DNA of 22,568 bases. Origin: a virus. The number at the start of each line of letters is the position of its first letter. Position 1 is the first letter of the stretch. The DNA lies in the IMG/VR virus record IMGVR_UViG_3300018481_000080, positions 1 to 22,568 of that record, one strand, 5' to 3'. Shown here in pieces: positions 1 to 22,440 of the stretch. The position numbers and the translations under genes are program-made. A model generated the notes under the pieces. That model did not search any database. It was not told the origin of the DNA and saw only the letters and a program-made list of their open reading frames with translations.

Positions 1-1386
1 AGCATTTTTCCATTTATGATATACTTCATCAAACTCCGGAAAAGTATTTAGAAAATCAGTTCCACGACGTCTATCGTGCTCATCAACGAATTTAATAAAA
101 TCTTTCTGATCAATAGTTACTTCGTCACTATCTTCTTTATGCATAATAAGTTCATAAATTCTTTTAAACTTATCAGCCTCCCATTGGTAAAAGCCTCTAT
201 TAGCAGTGCCGTACCATTCGGGATGTTGTAAATTTTTATAGACCATAGTTACCTGATCATAAATTGGTGCAAGCATCTTCTTCGGAAGAATAAAAATAGT
301 TTGATGAACAGGGAATCTTAAATATGGTGCATCAAGAATAATTGGAGATGTCGGTGCATCGTATCTACCATATTCTAATTTAATATCAAGAATATCTTGC
401 ATAAACTTCAAATAACTATGAACACTTAACGCATTATAGGTACTCATAACTGTAAATGTGCAGTTAGGAACTTCGTTAAGAATACGACGAATATTAAATA
501 ACCATTGATCATAATTTAAACCAAAGCGAATATATTCAGCACGTTCTCCATATGCTTCAGCACTTGTAAATATTTTAAATTTCTTTACTTTATTTTCTGT
601 ACAAATAATCTTAATCTTTTCAATGAACTTATCTAACAATCCGTCCGGTGGATTTAGATTGGTGTTGATTGAGAAATCAAGATTTGGATTTGGGTTTTCA
701 ATAATATAATCTAATACCTTAAATGTATCCTTTGCGAGTAAAGGCTCACCGCCAGTAACTCTAAAGTGTTCTAGTTTGGTATAAATTTCTGGCCACCATT
801 TCCAAAATGCATCAACATAAGGATTTTCTTCTTTATGTGGAATAGGCATTGCATCTTGCATCTTCAGCCACTCAATATTACCGAAACTTGATGATGTTGG
901 ATAAGGACCAAATTGCTGAATTTCTTCCATCCATTTACTGCTAATCTGCGGTGAACAATAACTGCATTTGAAATTGCAAACACTGCTAAATGATACTTCT
1001 AAATAGGAAGGTAATACGTCATCATCCCATGGCATATTTTTAATTGTATCTATGTATGGACGCGCCCATGAATCTGCTGATTTATAAACACGATCGCTAA
1101 TTGCATCAGGTCCACTATCTTCAATTTTCCAACAGTAATCACATTCTTTTGGTCGAACACCTTCGAGCATGTCTTTGCGTTGGAGTTTTTTGTAGCTGGT
1201 ATTGTGCAATGCACCGGGATTATCTTCTAGTTCACTTAAAGGAACTTTATGAGTTTTTGGGTGGTGACAACTATGGGTGTGCCCAGTTTGTAGATGCAAT
1301 GTTACCTGTTTCCATTTGGCCGCACAAAAGGAAGGGCTGATTGCATTCAGTTTATTCCTGACAAGCATGATTGGTGTTTCGTTCAT
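1..1386 (-). CDS. Radical SAM protein (twitch-type), 3' end beyond the window
   Basis: My translation gives 462 codons from the ATG at 1386 with no stop before base 1, so the C-terminus is missing. A canonical radical SAM cluster motif CxxxCxxC (C137, C141, C144, context VCNFKCSYC) should bind the 4Fe-4S cluster that cleaves S-adenosylmethionine. A GGEP motif at about 212-215 fits the SAM-binding strand. The N-terminal 130 residues hold extra cysteines (C21, C40 in SCHHP, C82 and C85 in CDYCW) that could bind an auxiliary cluster or metal. I recall this arrangement from 'twitch domain-containing radical SAM' proteins of marine T4-like phages. The start overlaps the methyltransferase stop by 4 bases (ATGA), suggesting coupled translation. 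The substrate is unknown; its place beside glycosyltransferases suggests sugar or peptide modification. The enzyme class is secure, the reaction is not. Confidence 0.9.
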   Translation of the reverse strand, partial: MNETPIMLVRNKLNAISPSFCAAKWKQVTLHLQTGHTHSCHHPKTHKVPLSELEDNPGALHNTSYKKLQRKDMLEGVRPKECDYCWKIEDSGPDAISDRVYKSADSWARPYIDTIKNMPWDDDVLPSYLEVSFSSVCNFKCSYCSPQISSKWMEEIQQFGPYPTSSSFGNIEWLKMQDAMPIPHKEENPYVDAFWKWWPEIYTKLEHFRVTGGEPLLAKDTFKVLDYIIENPNPNLDFSINTNLNPPDGLLDKFIEKIKIICTENKVKKFKIFTSAEAYGERAEYIRFGLNYDQWLFNIRRILNEVPNCTFTVMSTYNALSVHSYLKFMQDILDIKLEYGRYDAPTSPIILDAPYLRFPVHQTIFILPKKMLAPIYDQVTMVYKNLQHPEWYGTANRGFYQWEADKFKRIYELIMHKEDSDEVTIDQKDFIKFVDEHDRRRGTDFLNTFPEFDEVYHKWKNA

Positions 1387-1979
1387 GTAATTCCTATAAT
1401 CATAAATCTTGTGTACATCGGCATTTCTAATTTACCCTTATATAAGATATTTGTTAAACCGGTTTGTTCAACAAACTCATCTTCGTTTGAAACACAATTA
1501 ATATGACCATTGCCTTCCTTAAAGTTATTTGATTGTAATATTACTGTTCTACCCTTTGGTATTAAATCTAGCCATGTTTTAATATCTGGAATATGTTCAC
1601 AACTGGTATTAATAATAAAGTCTTCATTATAATAGTATTTATACATGTCATCTGTCACTACTTTCATGAAGCCGTTGTCGTAAATCATATTATGAATAAA
1701 CTTTTCGCAGCGTGGATCAATATCCATCATTGTTACATATATGCTTGGGAATCTAGCTTTTAGCATCATACCTAGTGTTCCAAACCAGGCACCTGCAACA
1801 CAGAAATGTTTATTTTGGTGAATAGGATCTAATCTAACTAATTCTCTTAATATCCATTCTTTGCTGTAAATCTGCCCTGAACTGAACATATCGCGGAACT
1901 CATCGTAGCGAGGCGCATCCTCTGTTGGTGTTGCGTAGAGTGAATTCGTATATTTAATAATAAGATCAGCGTCAATCAT
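1383..1979 (-). CDS. Class I SAM-dependent methyltransferase
   Basis: This 198-aa protein has the layout of a Rossmann-fold methyltransferase. A glycine-rich motif I (VAGAWFGTLG, residues 61-70) follows a hydrophobic strand. The acidic motif II region MMDIDPR (84-90) would hold the ribose of S-adenosylmethionine. A later NTSCEHI segment (124-130) sits where the substrate-side strand usually lies. At under 200 aa it is essentially only the catalytic core, with an N-terminal helical cap of about 50 residues. It overlaps the upstream glycosyltransferase-like gene by 4 bases (ATGA) and the downstream radical SAM gene by 4 bases, so it sits in the middle of a coupled unit. No strong ribosome-binding site precedes its ATG, consistent with translation by re-initiation. 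The target (sugar, protein or small molecule) cannot be told from sequence. Confidence 0.85.
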   Translation of the reverse strand: MIDADLIIKYTNSLYATPTEDAPRYDEFRDMFSSGQIYSKEWILRELVRLDPIHQNKHFCVAGAWFGTLGMMLKARFPSIYVTMMDIDPRCEKFIHNMIYDNGFMKVVTDDMYKYYYNEDFIINTSCEHIPDIKTWLDLIPKGRTVILQSNNFKEGNGHINCVSNEDEFVEQTGLTNILYKGKLEMPMYTRFMIIGIT

Positions 1980-2983
1980 TTATTTGTTTTTCTTAGTTCG
2001 TTTAGTTCTTCTTCGGTAAAAAGTTTACCCATGCGTGGAACATTAACATAAGCAGCCTTGTAGAATTTACTTTGTGTTTCATTAAGTTCAGCAACTTCGA
2101 GTCCTATACCTTTTCTTAAAGATTCTCCTAAACTTTCTATCGAACTCCATAAGGTGTCCCTGTCCCATGTATAATTAGTCTTATAACATTTTTCGATAGA
2201 TTCGCTAATTTTTCCAGGACGTGCTAGGAATTTAGGCTTTACTTCATCTTCGAATAAGTTGTTTAGATATTCAAAATCCCTAACTTGAATATAATCCCAT
2301 TCAGTTAAGGTTGTCATAAAACAACCTAAACGTGCTCCATACATTGCCCACATTCCATTTTCAACATCAGCACCTACACTGCACCAAGTGATTAATCTTT
2401 TATAGTTACCCCACCAGATACTTTTCTTAAAGTTATCGGGATCAGCTCTACCACCACGACGAAGACTCATTTTAACACCTTCTCTGAAGCCTGCGCGAAA
2501 TGCTTGTCTTGGACTTCCGTTCGGACGAGTAATACTATATTGATTTGTCATTTGAACATAACTATCTTCCCAACAAAAATCAACCTGATTTCTTTCATCT
2601 TCTTCATCAGAATTTTCATGTGTACGCATGTTCAGTACATATTCTTTAGGCCAACATTTTAGCCCACCATTACCATACTCGAGTCCATTAATATAATTCT
2701 GTGCGGCCCAACTTACAGCTTTATCTCGAAGAGTAGGATGATCGAAATCTAATTCCATATCGAAAAAGTTCGGATCAATAATATTATCACCATCAACGGA
2801 AATAAATCTATCAGTTTCAGATAAGTTTGCTGCGGCCTTATGTGCAGAATCAGAACCCTTAACACCGTGAACTCTTTGAGCCCATGGAACTTTATCTTGT
2901 AAATCTGCCCAATTTTCTTCGCAGTTATCTTCGTCGTAACTTATGAATATTACATCTAGCTCGTTTAATAATTTAAATGTCAT
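1976..2983 (-). CDS. Glycosyltransferase-like protein (GT-A type N-terminal half)
   Basis: The protein has 335 aa. The N-terminal half reads like a GT-A nucleotide-sugar enzyme: a first strand LDVIFISYDE (9-18), then a strand ending FISVDGDNIID (60-70) whose D64-G-D66 would be the metal-binding DXD motif. The C-terminal half is acidic and aromatic-rich (for example RLITWCSVGADVENGMWAMYG) and I cannot assign it to a domain. A good ribosome-binding site (AAAGAGGT, about 7 bases before ATG) makes the start secure. The gene shares one base with the stop of the 193-aa gene (TAATG) and overlaps the methyltransferase by 4 bases. It is not an obvious paralogue of the two MSRG glycosyltransferases nearby. 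Similar proteins occur, from memory, in marine T4-like phages. The fold call is reasonable; donor and acceptor are unknown, and a non-catalytic role is possible. Confidence 0.7.
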   Translation of the reverse strand: MTFKLLNELDVIFISYDEDNCEENWADLQDKVPWAQRVHGVKGSDSAHKAAANLSETDRFISVDGDNIIDPNFFDMELDFDHPTLRDKAVSWAAQNYINGLEYGNGGLKCWPKEYVLNMRTHENSDEEDERNQVDFCWEDSYVQMTNQYSITRPNGSPRQAFRAGFREGVKMSLRRGGRADPDNFKKSIWWGNYKRLITWCSVGADVENGMWAMYGARLGCFMTTLTEWDYIQVRDFEYLNNLFEDEVKPKFLARPGKISESIEKCYKTNYTWDRDTLWSSIESLGESLRKGIGLEVAELNETQSKFYKAAYVNVPRMGKLFTEEELNELRKTNK

Positions 2984-3564
2984 TAAGATACCTCTTTATA
3001 TCCATACCCACTAATAATTCTCCTTGTGTATGCACTAGCATTTTCAATAGTACCTTTGTAATTAAAATAAAGGCGATCTTGTCGAAACAGTTCTCCGGGT
3101 AAAAAAATTATTTTAAATAAAAAATGATATGGATTATGTTTTTTTGTAATATAGATGGTAGTAGCATTGCTTTTTAAAATATCTTCAATAACTTTTTTAT
3201 CTTCATCAGTACCATCATTATATAATAATTTGAATGCACGAGAAAACTCAACAATAAATACCTTGTCAGTTTTATTATTGGTAATAGTTATAATTGTTGT
3301 CTTCGGTTTTACATTTTCAATTTCAGTAAGGTAATTATCTAATGTTCTAGTATAACTTATACTAACAACAATCTTTTTTTCTAATATAAATTTTTCATCT
3401 TTTTTCTTTACTGTATAGTCAAATGTATTCTTTTTTCTTGTAAAGAATGGTTCAACCTCAGCAAAATCAAATATCGCAACAGATAATGTTTCATCTTGTA
3501 GATCATGTTCTGTCGGTGCCATTCCTCTAATCTCTCCGTCTTTATCAAAGAAGACACAAGTCAT
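2983..3564 (-). CDS. Unknown Lys-rich 193-aa protein of the modification cassette
   Basis: I do not recognise this protein. It is rich in lysine, isoleucine, threonine and aromatic residues and is probably mostly beta-stranded, with alternating hydrophobic stretches such as TTIITITNN and KIVVSISYT and a basic, aromatic C-terminal third (residues about 140-193). No signal peptide, membrane segment or catalytic motif is evident. Its DNA is visibly more AT-rich than that of its neighbours, with several runs of A or T of six or seven bases. It starts with a 4-base ATGA overlap on the upstream glycosyltransferase and ends in a TAATG overlap with the next gene, so it is clearly part of the unit. 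It could be an accessory or acceptor-recognition subunit for the glycosyltransferases, but that is inference from position only. Confidence 0.7.
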   Translation of the reverse strand: MTCVFFDKDGEIRGMAPTEHDLQDETLSVAIFDFAEVEPFFTRKKNTFDYTVKKKDEKFILEKKIVVSISYTRTLDNYLTEIENVKPKTTIITITNNKTDKVFIVEFSRAFKLLYNDGTDEDKKVIEDILKSNATTIYITKKHNPYHFLFKIIFLPGELFRQDRLYFNYKGTIENASAYTRRIISGYGYKEVS

Positions 3565-4406
3565 ACTCCAATTTTCCTTTCTAACTTACTAATCATATCA
3601 TCAGTTAACCATTCTTTAATCTGATAATGGAATGGTAGATACTGTTCATAATTTCCTATTTTAAATTTGCAATCTTCTGTAAAATAAGTCGGAATACTTT
3701 TTGTCCAATCTTCTTCAATAAGTTTTTGGTCTATATTTTGTAAAGCAGATTTCATGTGAACAAAGGTTGGTATAGAATTTGTATCAAAACATTCATTTTC
3801 AATTCCTAGTAATTTGATAGCAAGTGCATATGCAACATCACCCGAATTGAACTTAGGTCTTGTTTCGTCTAAATAATCATAATAAAATCTTTCCCAGTTA
3901 TTAAATATAAGTTCTGTTAGCTTAAATAATTCTGAGGCTAAATCACATTTCTTAAAATAGAAAAATGCTATATAAAAATGAGGAAGATTATTAGCAACAT
4001 GAACTTGTCTATATTTTGTTGAAGTTATTATTTCTCCTCTAAACGTTCTTGGCTTATCTGTAACCCACACATCTTTCATTGCAAGAACTTCCCACCAATA
4101 ACTAATATCTGTCGGAAATAACATGTCGGCGTCAAGGACAACAGTTTCATCAAATGGAGTCATGTAATAAAACTTCCATGTGTTTTCGATTTTCCATTCT
4201 GAATTCTTGGCATGATCCATCCAGGGTATTGGAACAATATGATCAAATGCATGTTTATATTTTTCCGGAATAATGTCATCTGTTGCAATGGCAACCTTAT
4301 TAACTTCTGATTGAGTACCTTTGATACTTAAGGCTAATGCATAAGCCATACGAATATAATCAGTCGACTCTGAATTTTGTGCTAAGATAAGATATCCTCT
4401 ACTCAT
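3561..4406 (-). CDS. GT8-like glycosyltransferase, copy B
   Basis: This 281-aa protein resembles GT-A enzymes of the glycogenin/GT8 type. It begins MSRGYLILAQN, has an early strand ending VAIATDD (38-44), and then FDETVVLDADMLFP (85-98), where D92-A-D94 is the expected metal-binding DXD. Further motifs fit the fold: FNSGDVAYALAI (186-197), resembling the acceptor-side 'NxGD' segment, and FVHMKS (215-220), whose histidine often provides a third metal ligand. It is a paralogue of the gene just upstream, sharing the MSRG start, the '(Y/D)Y(I/F)..A.A.AL.IK' helix and the 'K.TP(F/Y)DET' stretch before the DXD. A clear AAGGA site sits about 5 bases before the ATG, and only one base separates it from the upstream stop. 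Donor sugar and acceptor are unknown. Confidence 0.82.
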   Translation of the reverse strand: MSRGYLILAQNSESTDYIRMAYALALSIKGTQSEVNKVAIATDDIIPEKYKHAFDHIVPIPWMDHAKNSEWKIENTWKFYYMTPFDETVVLDADMLFPTDISYWWEVLAMKDVWVTDKPRTFRGEIITSTKYRQVHVANNLPHFYIAFFYFKKCDLASELFKLTELIFNNWERFYYDYLDETRPKFNSGDVAYALAIKLLGIENECFDTNSIPTFVHMKSALQNIDQKLIEEDWTKSIPTYFTEDCKFKIGNYEQYLPFHYQIKEWLTDDMISKLERKIGV

Positions 4407-4407
4407 T

Positions 4408-5289
4408 TTAGTCCTTGTATAATGAGATTAATTTATCTGCATATCTATTGATTGCCCATTTATTCATAATATGAACATCTGTATTTTTAATTCTAGATAG
4501 AATATATGTCCCCGGCACTTTAGGCTTTTCTACATAAAGAATAAGATTATTGTAATCAACCGAATGAATATCATTTACATCCCATGACATTAATAACCCG
4601 GGAATTGGTAGTTCTTTTACAACTGATTCAAACTCATTAAACCCATTCATCATGTGGATAGCAATGCTAAAGGCATGATCGTTTCGGAACATTCCGCTAG
4701 AGAAATAATATAAATCTTTATAATAGCGATAATTTTCTTGAATATGTTGCACCAAATAAAATAAATGTTTGGCTAGGGGAGATTTTCTAAAATAAATAAC
4801 CGTAGCCCAATATAATTTAATACCCATATCATCTATATTTTTTGAATATGGTGTCACTTGATCAATAGGAGAATAAATTTTGTGATTTATCATTATATCG
4901 TTTCTACTGTTCCAACAATTGCTAAGAGCCGAACTCATAATTAGATAATCACAATCTATAAATAATGTTTCATCGTATGGGGTAAGTTTATATGCTTCCC
5001 AATGATTACAATTATAAAATTGAAGACTTTTATTATTAAAAGATGTATCGTTAAAATTTTTTTCGTTTTTGAATTTGTAATTCTTTTTTATAATAATAAT
5101 ATTTTCAAAACATTGATTAACAAGTTCTTCAGTTAACGCCTCTTTCCCCCAATTAACTGAACCATCATCGGTTACCAATGTTACAGGCACCTGTAAATTC
5201 TTCTTAATCATTAAAGCATTTGCACATGCAATTTTGAAATAATCAATTTCTGGATTATTATGTGCATACATTAATACACCTCTGCTCAT
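4408..5289 (-). CDS. GT8-like glycosyltransferase, copy A
   Basis: This 293-aa protein is the first of two tandem related glycosyltransferases. It begins MSRGVLMYAHNN, has an early VTLVTDDGS strand-turn (36-44), and carries LTPYDETLFIDCDYL (102-116), where D112-C-D114 occupies the DXD position. RNDHAFSIAIH (near 202-212) and HIMNKW near the C-terminus correspond to the acceptor-side Asp and late His segments of its neighbour. Overall identity between the two copies looks modest, so the duplication is not recent; they may have diverged to different sugars or acceptors. The start overlaps the upstream 116-aa gene by 4 bases (ATGA), with a weak TGGAA-type ribosome-binding site, implying coupling. 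The metal-dependent GT-A assignment is an inference from motifs. Confidence 0.8.
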   Translation of the reverse strand: MSRGVLMYAHNNPEIDYFKIACANALMIKKNLQVPVTLVTDDGSVNWGKEALTEELVNQCFENIIIIKKNYKFKNEKNFNDTSFNNKSLQFYNCNHWEAYKLTPYDETLFIDCDYLIMSSALSNCWNSRNDIMINHKIYSPIDQVTPYSKNIDDMGIKLYWATVIYFRKSPLAKHLFYLVQHIQENYRYYKDLYYFSSGMFRNDHAFSIAIHMMNGFNEFESVVKELPIPGLLMSWDVNDIHSVDYNNLILYVEKPKVPGTYILSRIKNTDVHIMNKWAINRYADKLISLYKD

Positions 5290-5636
5290 TCAATTTCCAG
5301 GATAGATTTTACATTTCTTGCTTTTCTAATAAGTTGATATTCTCTTAAGAAATCATTTGATACTTCAAAGTAACGTGTTGTTACTTCTTTTAGAAATCCC
5401 GGTATATCTAATATTTCAACCGGTAATTTATTTCTATCAAAAATAGTTGCCCTAGTTCTTCCTTCTCTAATTAGATAATCCAGAAAGCAAATGAGTTCTT
5501 GGCTAACATAGAAAGTTCCGCCATTCTTAGCTAAGATTAGAAGTCCATCTGTTTTAATTTTAGATTTATTTAATTGAGTATTTAGAGTTTGTCTGTAGTT
5601 AGCAAACTCTAATGCTTTTTCTAATCTATCGTTCAT
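5286..5636 (-). CDS. Small unknown protein, first gene of the cassette
   Basis: This 116-aa protein has no function I can name. Features visible: a charged N-terminal helix (RLEKALEFANYRQTL), a short beta segment with LLILAKNGGTFYVS (32-45), a hydrophobic helix ELICFLDYLI, and a basic C-terminal helix (EYQLIRKARNVKSIL). I recall short proteins with the same 'LE.ALEFANYR.TLN...NGG.F....ELI.F' pattern in T4-like marine phages, where they are left as hypothetical. Its start is exceptionally well supported: GGAGG lies 6 bases before the ATG, inside the arm of a hairpin that also surrounds a late-promoter-like element. As the promoter-proximal gene of a seven-gene coupled unit it should be the best translated. 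Its role could be structural or regulatory; I cannot choose. Confidence 0.75.
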   Translation of the reverse strand: MNDRLEKALEFANYRQTLNTQLNKSKIKTDGLLILAKNGGTFYVSQELICFLDYLIREGRTRATIFDRNKLPVEILDIPGFLKEVTTRYFEVSNDFLREYQLIRKARNVKSILEIE

Positions 5637-5642
5637 AAAAAA

Positions 5643-5647
5643 CCTCC
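5643..5647 (-). promoter_or_regulatory. GGAGG ribosome-binding site inside the hairpin arm
   Basis: GGAGG on the minus strand lies 6 bases before the ATG at 5636 and fixes that start. It is part of the downstream arm of the 13-bp hairpin, so it would be paired in read-through RNA and free in RNA started at the loop promoter. Confidence 0.8.
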
Positions 5648-5653
5648 GTTACA

Positions 5654-5662
5654 CTATTTATC
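5654..5662 (-). promoter_or_regulatory. Late-promoter-like element GATAAATAG in the hairpin loop
   Basis: On the minus strand the loop reads GATAAATAG, one substitution from the T4 late consensus TATAAATA and matching two other gap elements in this window (7221-7229, 7941-7949). In T4-type phages such elements are read by RNA polymerase with the gp55-type sigma factor, and transcription starts about 5-7 bases beyond. Here that would give a leader of only about 15-20 bases before the ATG at 5636. It would drive the whole modification cassette late in infection. Confidence 0.65.
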
Positions 5663-5697
5663 TATAGCTTTAACGGAGGTTTTTGGTATTGAGTATA

Positions 5698-6669
5698 TTA
5701 GGTTAATACATACGATCCCGGTGTGAGACTAACTACCGCTGGACCTGGTCCTCCTGCTCCTGATAAGAAAGGAAGTGCACCTGCCGAGTGTACTTCAATT
5801 AAATAAAATTGTGTAGCTTGTGCTTTGGTATCAAGTGGTGGAACAGAATCAGTTTGCGTTAAGATCACTTGAAATTGTACAGTTCCGGCATTGACAGCTG
5901 GTGGTGTGCCAGCAAGTCTTACCCTTACAGATATTGAACTATTGGTATAAACACCACCCCCGCCGTAGACAGCACGAAAAACTTCGAAATAAGGTGCTGG
6001 ATCTACCGGTAATGGGTTTCCAGTTGTACCCCAAAATCCTCCAGTAGAAATTGAGTTTGGTCTGGAACCACCTGCAAACGAATCTTTTGCTCTTAAAAAT
6101 ATTTGTCCAACTTCAGTCCAAAAGGTACTCCACATTGCATCATCACCGGCACCTGTAGGATAAGTTGCTGTAAACCCGATTTGACCGCCGGAATTCATGA
6201 AATACCTTGCTTGATTCCAATTCCCCATATTAATTGAAAATGTATATGTAAGAGTATTTGTCCACGGTGCTGAACCAGTTGTAGCGGGGGTCGATGTAGT
6301 GAATGCTTGTTCTCCGCCCGGAAGAAGAAATCGATTTGTTCTTAATGTGGTTAGTAGTGTAGGTATGGCAGAATAGGCAATAATAGGACCACCCACAACA
6401 GGATTCGCCGGCAATGTAGCTGTTGAGGTTCCTTGGTGAGTTCCAGTATTTCTTATATTATTAAATAATGTACTCCATTGTGCTGCTGTAATGGTTTGAC
6501 CTATTGCAACATCTGTTGGTGATGTTCGACCATATCCGAAATCAGCGCCCGCCGCAACCGTAGTGGCATTAGAATGAAGATCAGCAAATACTTCGTCTAT
6601 ATTATTGGCAGCGGAGACGAAGGCATTATAATCTGCAGCAAGAATTGTTGAGCCGGTGGCGTAAGTCAT
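5698..6669 (-). CDS. Tail/fibre-like virion protein, 323 aa
   Basis: Probably a virion protein exposed on the tail. It is rich in Gly, Thr, Ala, Pro and Asn and predicted mainly beta, typical of fibre or baseplate accessory proteins. The N-terminus has two related short units: GSTILAADYNAFVSAANNI (6-24) and GQTITAAQWSTLFNNI (57-72), the second followed by NTGTHQG. The 'I.A.dyN.f...nNI' pattern is, from memory, common at the start of structural proteins in T4-like marine phages. The rest (about 100-323) contains aromatic-rich strands (WSTFWTEVGQIFLRA) and a glycine-rich tail (FLSGAGGPGPA). There is no signal peptide or enzymatic motif. A weak GGAAA ribosome-binding site precedes the ATG; the upstream gene ends 14 bases away, so the two are probably co-transcribed. 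A terminator follows directly. Confidence 0.75.
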   Translation of the reverse strand: MTYATGSTILAADYNAFVSAANNIDEVFADLHSNATTVAAGADFGYGRTSPTDVAIGQTITAAQWSTLFNNIRNTGTHQGTSTATLPANPVVGGPIIAYSAIPTLLTTLRTNRFLLPGGEQAFTTSTPATTGSAPWTNTLTYTFSINMGNWNQARYFMNSGGQIGFTATYPTGAGDDAMWSTFWTEVGQIFLRAKDSFAGGSRPNSISTGGFWGTTGNPLPVDPAPYFEVFRAVYGGGGVYTNSSISVRVRLAGTPPAVNAGTVQFQVILTQTDSVPPLDTKAQATQFYLIEVHSAGALPFLSGAGGPGPAVVSLTPGSYVLT

Positions 6670-7940: not shown

Positions 7941-7949
7941 CTATTTATT
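7941..7949 (-). promoter_or_regulatory. Late-promoter-like element AATAAATAG
   Basis: The minus strand reads AATAAATAG between the stop of the 3508-aa gene (7969) and the ATG at 7920, leaving a leader of about 15-20 bases that contains the AAAGG ribosome-binding site. It matches the two other gap elements in the window. Confidence 0.6.
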
Positions 7950-18498: not shown

Positions 18499-21400
18499 TT
18501 ATACTCTTAAATTCTGATCTGTTAGGTTAGCAACAATCTGAACATTATTCACGGTTGCTGTAGACATGAATAACTCTGTTGGGCCGGCAACAATTTCGAA
18601 TAAGTTACCGAATTGTGAATTAGCATTATTAGGAACAATAACTACTGAACTAATGATCCTTGATAATTGTTGGTGAATAAATGCTGATAATTCAGACCAG
18701 AAGAATTTTTCTCCAAAATCCCAATTTCTAATATCAAAATAAATATCAACTGCCTGAATTACCTTTGTCTTAACTTCGTTATCACTTATGTTTGTTGTTG
18801 GAGATTTAACAACCTTTATAGTTGCTTGTAATTCCGGTGCTGCCTGTGGACCAAATAAAATCTTGAATGTCCCAGAATTCCATATCATTGCATCACTAAC
18901 CATTTTATATTGTTCTAGATCTTGGAATTGAATTCTAAGTTCTTCAGTCGTTGGATGTTCTGGTATTGAAACAAGAGTGCCATTACTATTTTTCCAAATT
19001 AACATATCTCTATAATAACCATCAGTTACAACAATCATATCAATAATATTGGTTGGTGATGGATCAATACGCTGATCAATCGGAGCATAATGGCTCCATT
19101 TAAAATATAGAGGTAATCTGTCATTTTCCGGAATATCTGTATTTTGTGTGAATACTTTACCATTTCTATCAAAATGTTCTGTATCAACAGATGTTTCAAA
19201 CACTTGTCCTGTAGGATATGTCGATAAATTTGGAGTTGGATTTGATTGTAAAGAATAATAAACACCGGATCCTGCTGGACTTCCCGAAATTAAGAAAATT
19301 TTATCTATAAAATTTGCTGTCACGATATTTGATTTATCAACTATAGTATTAGTTCCGGCAAGCCATGAAAATGGAATTACTTCTCTTGTCGATGTACTAA
19401 TATTATTAAAAAATGCTGTAATTTGATTACCTATAGTTATGGCGGAGGGATCTACAGAATTAAATAATAATTGACCAATATTGTTAATAAAAATTAGATC
19501 AGCGGTATTAAGAAATACTGTAGTATCTGGTGGTGGATCATATTGACTTCCAGCGCCTGTTCCGGTGGGGAGTAATACACTCGAAATGAATGGTGAACCA
19601 TACAATCTGGTATTATCTGACAAATCAACCGGAAAATAAACATAGAGATTACCAGTTGAGCTAGAAAAAGTTGTCGACCAAGGTCCTATCCATGGACGAG
19701 TACTCTGGTATCCTGTAACTTCATTATTGTAATATTCAAAAACAACTCTATCGTCTGAACCTACAAGATTATTGAACCCGTTAGGATTATCCGGGATTCC
19801 ATCTTCATTACTATCAACTAGCGATACTTCCACCTTGGATGTGTCTACATATCCGTCGAGCTGAGTAAAGACACCGGTGATATCAAGTATCACCGGTTCT
19901 TCTAAGAAAGCTTCACACGGGGCAGAGATAACATCTTCTGGTAAATTATTATCAATTGAACTATTAGAATTAACAAATGGCATAATTTCAATTGTGTCTT
20001 GAAGTGCTTGTCCTGTTGCACTATCAAGTACAACTACACCCGGTTCCCAATAGAAACGAACGTTTCTATAAGATTCAAAAACATAAACTCTGCCCCGTGC
20101 AGTTAAATCATATGTAATAGTTCCGAGATCATTATTGCTTGCAATGTTTATATACAATAATCCACTGTCGGGATAACTTTGCCAAGTGGAATAAATTTGA
20201 GGGACTCCGCCAACCTCATCTGGTGCTGCATATTTCCAGGGTTGTTCTGCTTGATTAAATATTCCTGATGTGATCTGTATAGATGTTCCCCAGTGATCTC
20301 TCAATAAATCATAATATAACCAGAATGAAATTCCGGCGTCGATTCTTTGAGAAATTTCTGCAATTTCTTCGGGAGTTAAATCATTTCTAAAAACTGGATA
20401 AACCTTGATAGCTTGATAACCGAGTTGTTCTTCGATGCCGAGTTCAACAGGTCCAACAGCAGCATAAGGATTTGTTGGATCAACAATTAAAGGAATTCCG
20501 TTTTGAATTACACTCTTGACTGCCGCTGAATTTAAGTTTGTAAATTCTGTTCCGGGAGGAAATGGCTTAGCAAATTCTAATACCGCCCCTGTTGAAATAA
20601 ATTTCCATGGTTGATATAAACTATTATTAACGTTATTTGGGTTCAAATTATTAATTAATGGTAAAGCAGTTTCATCGGCTGTATTAGCACTTGCTGTGAA
20701 GAAACCTGTATCATTCTTAAATTTTCGAGGACTTGTTTTCCAGAACAAAGGTAAGCTAGGTTCTCCTGGCACAGGAACAAGTTCTAATAGTGATCTACCT
20801 GTATTTGGTGGATTAACTCGAATGGTTTCCTCAAATTGCGGAAGATATTCATCATAGAAGAATTGAGCCACTTGTGGATTTCTTAACATTTCCTGAATTG
20901 AATTAATTAAAATATTGTCAATATTACCAGCATTAGATACATCTTGAACAATTTCAATTAATACATCTTGATTGTCTCTATACAATGCGCCATCTTGGCC
21001 GAAAATAATTAAATCACGATGAAATCCAGTCGGATCATTTAAATCAATATAACGACTATGTCCACTATAGGTACGATTGGTAGATTGAATTTTTGCAATC
21101 TGATTGCCGTAAACAAGAGGAAGAACATTGTAGTCACTTCCATTAACCATGCGTGATTGTGTTGAAAATACTTCAGGCGCACGTAACCTAATTTGTTCAT
21201 CTGTTTCTGCTGCGGCAGCATTTCCAATTGTTTGTTCAAGATTAAATATAAGTCGTAGAACATATTGTTGCTGATCGACACCAATATAAGGAATGTTAAT
21301 TTGCAGCCCTTGTGCATCATCTGGACGAATTACAAGTGCTTGATTTGCACTAACACGAACCCAAGACCTAAATAAACCAGTTGGGACATTACCGAAGTTG

Positions 21401-22440
21401 CCATCAGCAAAACGAATACTAACTGTATTGTTGGGTCCGGAAATAACAGAGAAAATATTTCTTTCAGCAAAGTGAATACTATTATAGATAATATTTTCAC
21501 CTGCTAGTGCTGGAACTTTAGCCCATTTATTAATTACATTACCGTTCTCATCTGTTTCTTGAACATAAACATCATCTTGATTAATGTTTTGAATGTTAAT
21601 TGGAAACAAACGATTAGGTACTGGAAACTCAAAATTGGTATCAACGTTAAGTAGATTACCTTGTTTAAAATATAAGAAGAAACCTGTATTGTCCGATGCT
21701 ACACCTAAGCTGTCATTTCTGTAAATAAAGTGAAAGGCATTATTCGGGTCTGGGTCACGTTCGAAAATTGTTTGATTAGTTACAAAATCCGGATTAGCAA
21801 TATCTATTGGATATGTTTGTCCACTAACAGTAATTGTGGCAGGATAGGTTACATTTAATCGTTTGATGTTATTTAACTGGTATAAATCTGTTGGAATCGA
21901 ACCAATTGTGCCGCTCTTCGTTGGACGTCCAAACGGGTTTAGTGTGCTGAATGCTGCATTAACAACTTGAATAAATTGATCGAACCAATCTGGATTGTTT
22001 GGATCATTCCAAAATATTGAGACATCGTTAATAGGAACGCCATTGGCATCTATTAATTGTTGATTAGTTTGAACCGCAGCAATCTTGAATAGGCCACTTG
22101 CAGGAATATTTCTGCGAGGAATATAATTAACCATCTGAGCAAGACGTACAACACTTTCTCTACGCTCTGCGGTGTCGATGAAGTTTTCGCGACTGTTAAG
22201 ATCTGTCCTGAACGCAAGGCTTGTACCAAAGTAAGCAAGTAACTCAATAATTGCAATAAACTCAGAACTTTCAATATAGTCATTGAAATCCTCCGGATAG
22301 TAAGTTTGAATATAGTTGATTAAGGCTTGCTTTAAGGTATCAAAGTCGTAAGCGGTGTAATCAATAAACTGAAAGGCCTTGAATACTTTCTTGTAATCTT
22401 CGGCCGCGAATAAGTTAGATTGGCGAATTGATTCTGACAT
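18499..22440 (-). CDS. 6: gp6/J-like baseplate wedge protein, 1313 aa
   Basis: A wedge protein that joins neighbouring wedges and forms the baseplate inner ring in T4-like phages. The N-terminus (FDTLKQALINYIQTYYPEDF, near 33-52; then SEFIAIIELLAYFGTSLAFR, near 60-79; and ENFIDTAERRESVVRLAQMV, near 85-104) matches the start of T4 gp6, where a 'DLLAYN....NL.SSVVQ.A' stretch is found. Residues about 415-435 carry EQIRLRAPEVFSTQSRMV and then NGSDYNVL, the characteristic baseplate J signature. The C-terminal 130 residues (IYFDIRNWDFGEKFFWSELS and following) also fit J/gp6. At 1313 aa it is about twice T4 gp6 (660 aa); the extra length lies in the middle and includes a DSNEDGIPDNP calcium-loop-like motif (about 875-885). 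The start overlaps the upstream gp25-like stop (TAATG), and an AGAGAG site precedes it. Confidence 0.88.
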   Translation of the reverse strand: MSESIRQSNLFAAEDYKKVFKAFQFIDYTAYDFDTLKQALINYIQTYYPEDFNDYIESSEFIAIIELLAYFGTSLAFRTDLNSRENFIDTAERRESVVRLAQMVNYIPRRNIPASGLFKIAAVQTNQQLIDANGVPINDVSIFWNDPNNPDWFDQFIQVVNAAFSTLNPFGRPTKSGTIGSIPTDLYQLNNIKRLNVTYPATITVSGQTYPIDIANPDFVTNQTIFERDPDPNNAFHFIYRNDSLGVASDNTGFFLYFKQGNLLNVDTNFEFPVPNRLFPINIQNINQDDVYVQETDENGNVINKWAKVPALAGENIIYNSIHFAERNIFSVISGPNNTVSIRFADGNFGNVPTGLFRSWVRVSANQALVIRPDDAQGLQINIPYIGVDQQQYVLRLIFNLEQTIGNAAAAETDEQIRLRAPEVFSTQSRMVNGSDYNVLPLVYGNQIAKIQSTNRTYSGHSRYIDLNDPTGFHRDLIIFGQDGALYRDNQDVLIEIVQDVSNAGNIDNILINSIQEMLRNPQVAQFFYDEYLPQFEETIRVNPPNTGRSLLELVPVPGEPSLPLFWKTSPRKFKNDTGFFTASANTADETALPLINNLNPNNVNNSLYQPWKFISTGAVLEFAKPFPPGTEFTNLNSAAVKSVIQNGIPLIVDPTNPYAAVGPVELGIEEQLGYQAIKVYPVFRNDLTPEEIAEISQRIDAGISFWLYYDLLRDHWGTSIQITSGIFNQAEQPWKYAAPDEVGGVPQIYSTWQSYPDSGLLYINIASNNDLGTITYDLTARGRVYVFESYRNVRFYWEPGVVVLDSATGQALQDTIEIMPFVNSNSSIDNNLPEDVISAPCEAFLEEPVILDITGVFTQLDGYVDTSKVEVSLVDSNEDGIPDNPNGFNNLVGSDDRVVFEYYNNEVTGYQSTRPWIGPWSTTFSSSTGNLYVYFPVDLSDNTRLYGSPFISSVLLPTGTGAGSQYDPPPDTTVFLNTADLIFINNIGQLLFNSVDPSAITIGNQITAFFNNISTSTREVIPFSWLAGTNTIVDKSNIVTANFIDKIFLISGSPAGSGVYYSLQSNPTPNLSTYPTGQVFETSVDTEHFDRNGKVFTQNTDIPENDRLPLYFKWSHYAPIDQRIDPSPTNIIDMIVVTDGYYRDMLIWKNSNGTLVSIPEHPTTEELRIQFQDLEQYKMVSDAMIWNSGTFKILFGPQAAPELQATIKVVKSPTTNISDNEVKTKVIQAVDIYFDIRNWDFGEKFFWSELSAFIHQQLSRIISSVVIVPNNANSQFGNLFEIVAGPTELFMSTATVNNVQIVANLTDQNLRV
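19873..19897. repeat. Strong coding hairpin in the gp6-like gene
   Basis: A perfect 10-bp inverted repeat (ACCGGTGATA at 19873-19882, TATCACCGGT at 19888-19897) has a 5-base loop. It is coding (PVILDITG) and is not followed by a T run, so it is not a terminator. It lies just before the DSNEDGIPDNP segment, near the start of a probable domain. Half its stem is G+C, unusual in this AT-rich region. Confidence 0.55.

Follow-up and report, generated by a model that had tools for sequence, protein, structure and literature searches.

In the 22.6-kb virus record IMGVR_UViG_3300018481_000080 (22,568 nt; the window, meaning the whole stretch of DNA that was analysed), a 48-base hairpin on the minus strand (5684-5637) probably serves as a boundary element between two late transcription units, a reading to which we give a probability of about 0.7. 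The hairpin would combine a terminator, a locked Shine-Dalgarno (SD) sequence and a promoter of its own in the loop. The order on the minus strand is 5'-CC AAAAACCTCCGTTA AAGCTATAGATAAATAGTG TAACGGAGGTTTTT T-ATG, with the following features:

5698..6669, minus strand: 323-aa ORF, last gene of the upstream tail module (ORF list and locus comparison)
5671..5684, minus strand: upstream (5') arm AAAAACCTCCGTTA, which holds the anti-SD CCTCC (arm pair of the inverted repeat 100% complementary; fold)
5652..5670, minus strand: loop AAGCTATAGATAAATAGTG, 19 nt (repeat search and fold; conserved in the alignment of close relatives)
5668-5664 / 5657-5653, minus strand: small inner stem GCUAU/AUAGU within the loop (RNA fold)
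5655..5662, minus strand: GATAAATA, putative T4-type late promoter octamer, in the loop (invariant in the orthologs; NATAAATA enrichment and late sigma factor in the relative G005)
5649, minus strand: predicted transcription start, 6 nt past the octamer, leader ACGGAGGTTTTTT (T4 rule and octamer-to-ATG spacing in homologs)
5638..5651, minus strand: downstream (3') arm TAACGGAGGTTTTT (inverted-repeat search)
5643..5647, minus strand: GGAGG SD in the 3' arm, 6 nt from the ATG (sequence; SD opening costs against background)
5637..5642, minus strand: T6 run, putative terminator U-tract and SD-ATG spacer in one (T-runs after SDs are rare in these genomes)
5636-5634, minus strand: ATG of the 116-aa gene (sequence)
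5286..5636, minus strand: 116-aa ORF, first gene of the downstream set, without family match (ORF list, family searches, AlphaFold model)
1..5289, minus strand: rest of the downstream set, 293, 281, 193, 335 and 198 aa plus a radical-SAM-like 462 aa (ORFs overlapping or adjacent, co-directional and closely packed)

The 323-aa ORF stops 13 nt ahead of the hairpin, and the gap between it and the 116-aa ORF is 61 nt. The downstream set behind the tail genes comprises seven genes and is opened by the 116-aa gene; a radical SAM match supports the label of the 462-aa ORF. The upstream tail genes include a 1313-aa gp6-like baseplate wedge protein (18499-22440), for which the nearest isolates are PA5oct-type Pseudomonas phages, Sinorhizobium phage Phosso, Salicola phage SCTP-2 and other jumbo phages. 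Contigs with relatives of the 116-aa protein reach 385 kb, and the element belongs to a group of very large uncultivated viruses of bacteria. Among 50,697 phage records, no near match was found for the window DNA, and protein searches gave no isolate match for the 116-, 293- and 335-aa genes. Altogether 218 IMG/VR stretches encode a relative of the 116-aa protein, and 80 of these loci (L141-L220) were examined. The order from the 116-aa gene to relatives of the 293-, 281- and 335-aa genes occurs in nearly all of them where the stretch is long enough, often with the radical-SAM-like gene, and relatives of the 230-, 170- or 323-aa tail genes precede the 116-aa homolog in many. Because this gene order is common to nearly all homologous loci, the junction appears to be an old boundary between the tail module and a second gene set.

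The 116-aa protein matched no family in PHROGs or Pfam, these searches gave no DNA- or RNA-binding match, and its 44-member alignment likewise matched no PHROGs family. The AlphaFold model (pLDDT 90) consists of two long helices with small beta hairpins and has no significant match in PDB; its single significant match in BFVD is an uncharacterised phage protein, and a weak similarity to DUF4376 lies below significance. Judging from the model, the product is perhaps a small chaperone, and we claim no function for it.

A preliminary description of this DNA had placed a perfect 13-bp hairpin directly after the last tail gene. The hairpin and its span are correct, but the arms form 14 bp with zero mismatches (5684-5671 / 5651-5638). 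The predicted RNA fold has an energy of -23.3 kcal/mol, while shuffled sequences average -5.6 (z -6.9; 0/200 shuffles as good). In 200 dinucleotide shuffles of the whole window, a perfect 14-bp inverted repeat with a loop of at most 30 never appeared and a 13-bp one appeared in 0.5%, and chance would not be expected to give the window so long a repeat with its arms so near each other. The hairpin escaped a consensus terminator scan because loops there are limited to 3-8. An Rfam search gave one chance-level match (E 0.94) and no curated family, and blastn with the hairpin alone gave chance-level matches. A loose pattern, CCTCC-ATAAATA-GGAGG, was also run over viral contigs; the matches listed were mostly chance, and we set them aside as evidence.

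All ten close IMG/VR relatives (58-72% protein identity) have the hairpin arms, a loop containing GATAAATA and an SD within the 3' arm, which makes 11/11 orthologs with the window, and there is exactly one such element per genome in the six genomes tested. In locus L147 both arms have changed from T-A to C-G, turning CCTCC/GGAGG into CCCCC/GGGGG inside the SD itself; L150 has an extra C/G pair in both arms together with an altered outer pair (ATCTCCC/GGGAGAT), and a G-U wobble is present in L144. We identified the pair changes by eye, as MAFFT placed the alignment gap at the ATG side. Paired changes, though few, that hit the SD itself argue that the arms are not merely frozen by separate roles, and the pairing thus appears to be conserved by compensatory change (L147 and L150; few events). 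Such changes, keeping GGAGG paired and the loop element intact, had been proposed as a check in the preliminary description, which had also counted the loss of pairing beside a kept promoter as evidence against it. None of the ten close relatives has lost the pairing, but several more distant ones (L151-L155, L162, L163 and L190) have the promoter without SD pairing, and in other distant relatives the transcript is predicted to be leaderless. For this reason the nesting is best seen as clade-specific, not obligatory, and the distant relatives that manage without it speak against our reading.

The loop element had been called late-promoter-like from the window sequence, and comparison with relatives bears this out. 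G005, a 385-kb relative, has 130 NATAAATA sites, of which 63 are found no more than 60 nt ahead of an ORF start, against 4.7% expected, and the commonest form of the motif is GATAAATA. Searches of this genome with T4 gp45 by tblastn and phmmer gave nothing significant. With the placement of the motif and a gp55-like late sigma factor in the same genome (phrog_12791, E 7e-76), NATAAATA behaves in G005 as a T4-type late promoter would, and the window octamer is a putative one of the same type, a TATAAATA-like octamer shortly upstream of late genes. In T4, late transcription starts 6 nt after the octamer. The window transcript would accordingly be expected to start near 5649 with the leader ACGGAGGTTTTTT, and the octamer-to-ATG spacing in SD-less leaders of homologs fits this distance. 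The same motif and a gp55-like sigma factor are described for the jumbo phage CBB, in which homologs of the coactivators gp33/gp45 are not detectable (PMC5259590); in cyanophage S-PM2 the motif was reported as NATAAATA, with N at the first position (PMC2984593). Two further minus-strand octamers in the window, at 7949 and 7229, lie just ahead of the 230-aa and 170-aa genes, and with these NATAAATA elements the RNA from upstream is probably late too.

Among 62 distinct leaders of 116-aa homologs, 28 have the ATG 5-6 nt beyond a late-type octamer (exactly 5 in 26 of them). All 28 lack an SD, and 26 have a T6 run just upstream, mostly behind a clear terminator hairpin; of the remaining 34 leaders, 33 have an SD. 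The same gene is therefore predicted, from sequence, to be expressed in many related phages from a leaderless late mRNA. Such loci lack an SD and have a terminator followed by a late-type octamer, with usually exactly 5 nt between octamer and ATG; they include L156, L157, L158, L159, L164, L165, L168, L174, L176, L179, L181-L183, L186, L189 and L202.

The SD stands, as first described, in the downstream arm six bases before the ATG (5647-5643, then six T), and folding supports the proposal that it is locked in read-through RNA and free in self-started RNA. Freeing GGAGG is predicted to cost 17.4 kcal/mol in the read-through RNA versus 2.8 in RNA from the loop promoter; across the orthologs the costs are 11.5-19.7 kcal/mol in upstream RNA versus 0.7-4.6 when self-started. 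As background, 379 other SDs in three relatives have a median of 2.2, a 99th percentile of 13.1 and a maximum of 15.3 kcal/mol. The residual structure of 0.7-4.6 kcal/mol that the freed leaders retain counts against our reading. For T4 gene e and I-TevII, which have similar geometry, the opening costs are 13.6 and 11.2 kcal/mol.

The proposed terminator also gains support. The 14-bp GC-containing stem is followed by U6, as in an intrinsic terminator. At least four T directly after the SD occur in 10 of 490 SD genes of these genomes, and six of the ten are the hairpin locus; among other genes the rate is about 1%. Where more distant homologs share the gene order, a canonical terminator occupies this junction, immediately followed by a late promoter. 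With a T-run specific to this locus and a positional match to clear terminators in distant homologs, termination at the hairpin is likely. Several orthologs have a short or broken U-tract (TTTTCC, TTTCTT, ATTTC), and there the terminator may vary in strength or be weak, which counts against our reading. SD-containing terminator-like hairpins also recur in other phages (L221, L222, L228, L230 and L231), in which CCTCCGTT...AACGGAGGTTTT stands directly before the ATG of unrelated genes.

Taken together, these observations suggest the following course. Polymerase arriving from the tail genes would make the full hairpin and U6 and mostly terminate there; in RNA that reads through, GGAGG would be paired in a very stable stem and poorly translated. 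Polymerase carrying the phage late sigma factor would start at GATAAATA in the loop, near 5649, and this RNA, which lacks the upstream arm and begins ACGGAGGUUUUUU-AUG, would be translated. The downstream set would thus be expressed essentially only from its own promoter. The mode of action would resemble that of T4 gene e and I-TevII, supplemented by a terminator. The preliminary description had proposed a late switch of the T4 kind, and the gene e precedent holds. An early/late timer is improbable, however, because NATAAATA elements are also present at the upstream tail genes; the hairpin more likely insulates one late operon from RNA that reads through from another. That the upstream genes look late also counts against our reading, since the classic reason for hiding an SD is missing.

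Similar pairing is found at other promoters of these phages. Late-octamer leaders with an SD number 122; in 19 of them the SD pairs with the upstream flank at a score of at least 18, compared with 3.8 when flanks are swapped. Seven of the 19 are the hairpin locus and 12 lie elsewhere, for instance CTCCTTG-TATAAATA-AGAAA-CAAGGAG in G005 (minus 19048); for at least two of these 12, a sigma70-like promoter is the better reading. At sigma70-like promoters the corresponding numbers are 13 versus 6.9 (score at least 18) and 7 versus 0.9 (score at least 24), an enrichment weaker than at late promoters because the sigma70-like ones have a conserved spacer and leader in common. For the 116-aa gene of a sister clade, the promoter is sigma70-like with a 17-nt spacer; its -10 lies in the loop, and the 3' arm contains GGAGG and then T6-7 (L170, L184, L187, L191, L194 and L216). 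In the protein tree the late-promoter and sigma70 labels each form one group, with weakly supported deep order. Some early-type promoters, with weaker statistics, have an anti-SD in the -35/-10 spacer and a complementary SD after the start (G003 minus 108311, 82655 and 114268; G002 plus 29348, 4165 and 31656; G005 minus 357647). We tentatively suggest, at slightly less than even odds, that a promoter within an SD hairpin is a general module of these large phages for translating only self-started RNA. It would occur with late promoters, and with sigma70-like promoters (anti-SD in the -35/-10 spacer) in the sister clade and at some early-type genes; an added U-tract would make it a combined operon end and start.

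The hairpin might instead be a compact terminator and late promoter in which placing the SD in the 3' arm saves space and hiding it has no selected role. The short ORF gap, the late appearance of the upstream genes, which removes any need for timing, and the unrelated phages with CCTCCGTT...AACGGAGGTTTT just before an ATG all speak for this. It leaves aside the excess of SD pairing at other late-promoter genes, which extends to the 12 leaders without the hairpin locus; T-runs are rare at other genes, so termination does not explain the pairing there. We consider this account unlikely. Far less probable still is that the hairpin stabilises the tail mRNA at its 3' end or serves as a site where RNase processes it, with promoter and SD nearby by coincidence. 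Stable hairpins can protect RNA 3' ends, and the fold here is very stable, but neither the octamer in the loop of every ortholog nor the co-change of the SD arm with its partner would be explained.

An operator, at which a regulatory protein binds the palindromic DNA or the RNA hairpin, is very improbable as well. Autoregulation of this kind has T4 precedents in I-TevI (at a late promoter) and gp43 (at an RNA hairpin) (PMC2988022, PMC3014915); the locus is unique per genome, and the inner stem around the octamer is largely kept. One pair of that stem is broken in L145 and L149, however, the co-varying arms fit pairing better than a fixed binding sequence, and the 116-aa protein lacks a nucleic-acid-binding match.

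The boundary element, if it works as proposed, would show that a control familiar from a few T4 genes also operates in large uncultivated phages, there fused with a terminator. It would suggest a reason other than timing, namely the insulation of neighbouring operons in a dense genome, and the 48-base part would be a compact self-insulating expression element.

The closest known systems are T4 gene e and I-TevII, both of which were recovered when the same scan was run on T4. They share the late octamer in the loop, the SD in the 3' arm and self-started RNA without the 5' arm, and the window has the corresponding predicted layout, with the octamer between the arms and the putative start after the 5' arm. 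The SD-hiding mechanism is established for T4 (PMC3014915, PMC2988022), and hairpin control of gene e amounts to about 100-fold (PMC3014915). The T4 cases differ in having no U-tract terminator and unrelated genes, and the RNA they hide is early/middle, whereas in the window the upstream genes appear late. The leaders of I-TevI, segB, Aeh1 mobE and T4 soc and 49 similarly have an SD that is sequestered in upstream-started RNA and freed by a nearby late promoter (PMC2988022, PMC3014915). These are homing endonuclease or other genes, with no terminator described in the available text of these papers, and in the T4 members the octamer lies elsewhere relative to the arms. Riboswitch attenuators acting on both transcription and translation have a terminator near enough to the ORF for its 3' side to include the ribosome-binding site, so that read-through RNA is poorly translated (PMC2258182); they have no promoter in the loop, and no ligand-binding domain was seen in the window hairpin. 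RaK2-like jumbo phages such as CBB have ATAAATA late promoters before structural genes and a gp55-like sigma factor, and a nested hairpin is not described in the available sections of PMC5259590. The layout had been regarded as unusually compact; the promoter in the loop of an SD hairpin is already known from T4 and terminators bearing a ribosome-binding site from riboswitches. New here are the joining of the two in one element, its conservation by a new phage group at what is probably a late/late boundary, and a sister clade in which a sigma70-like promoter takes the same place.
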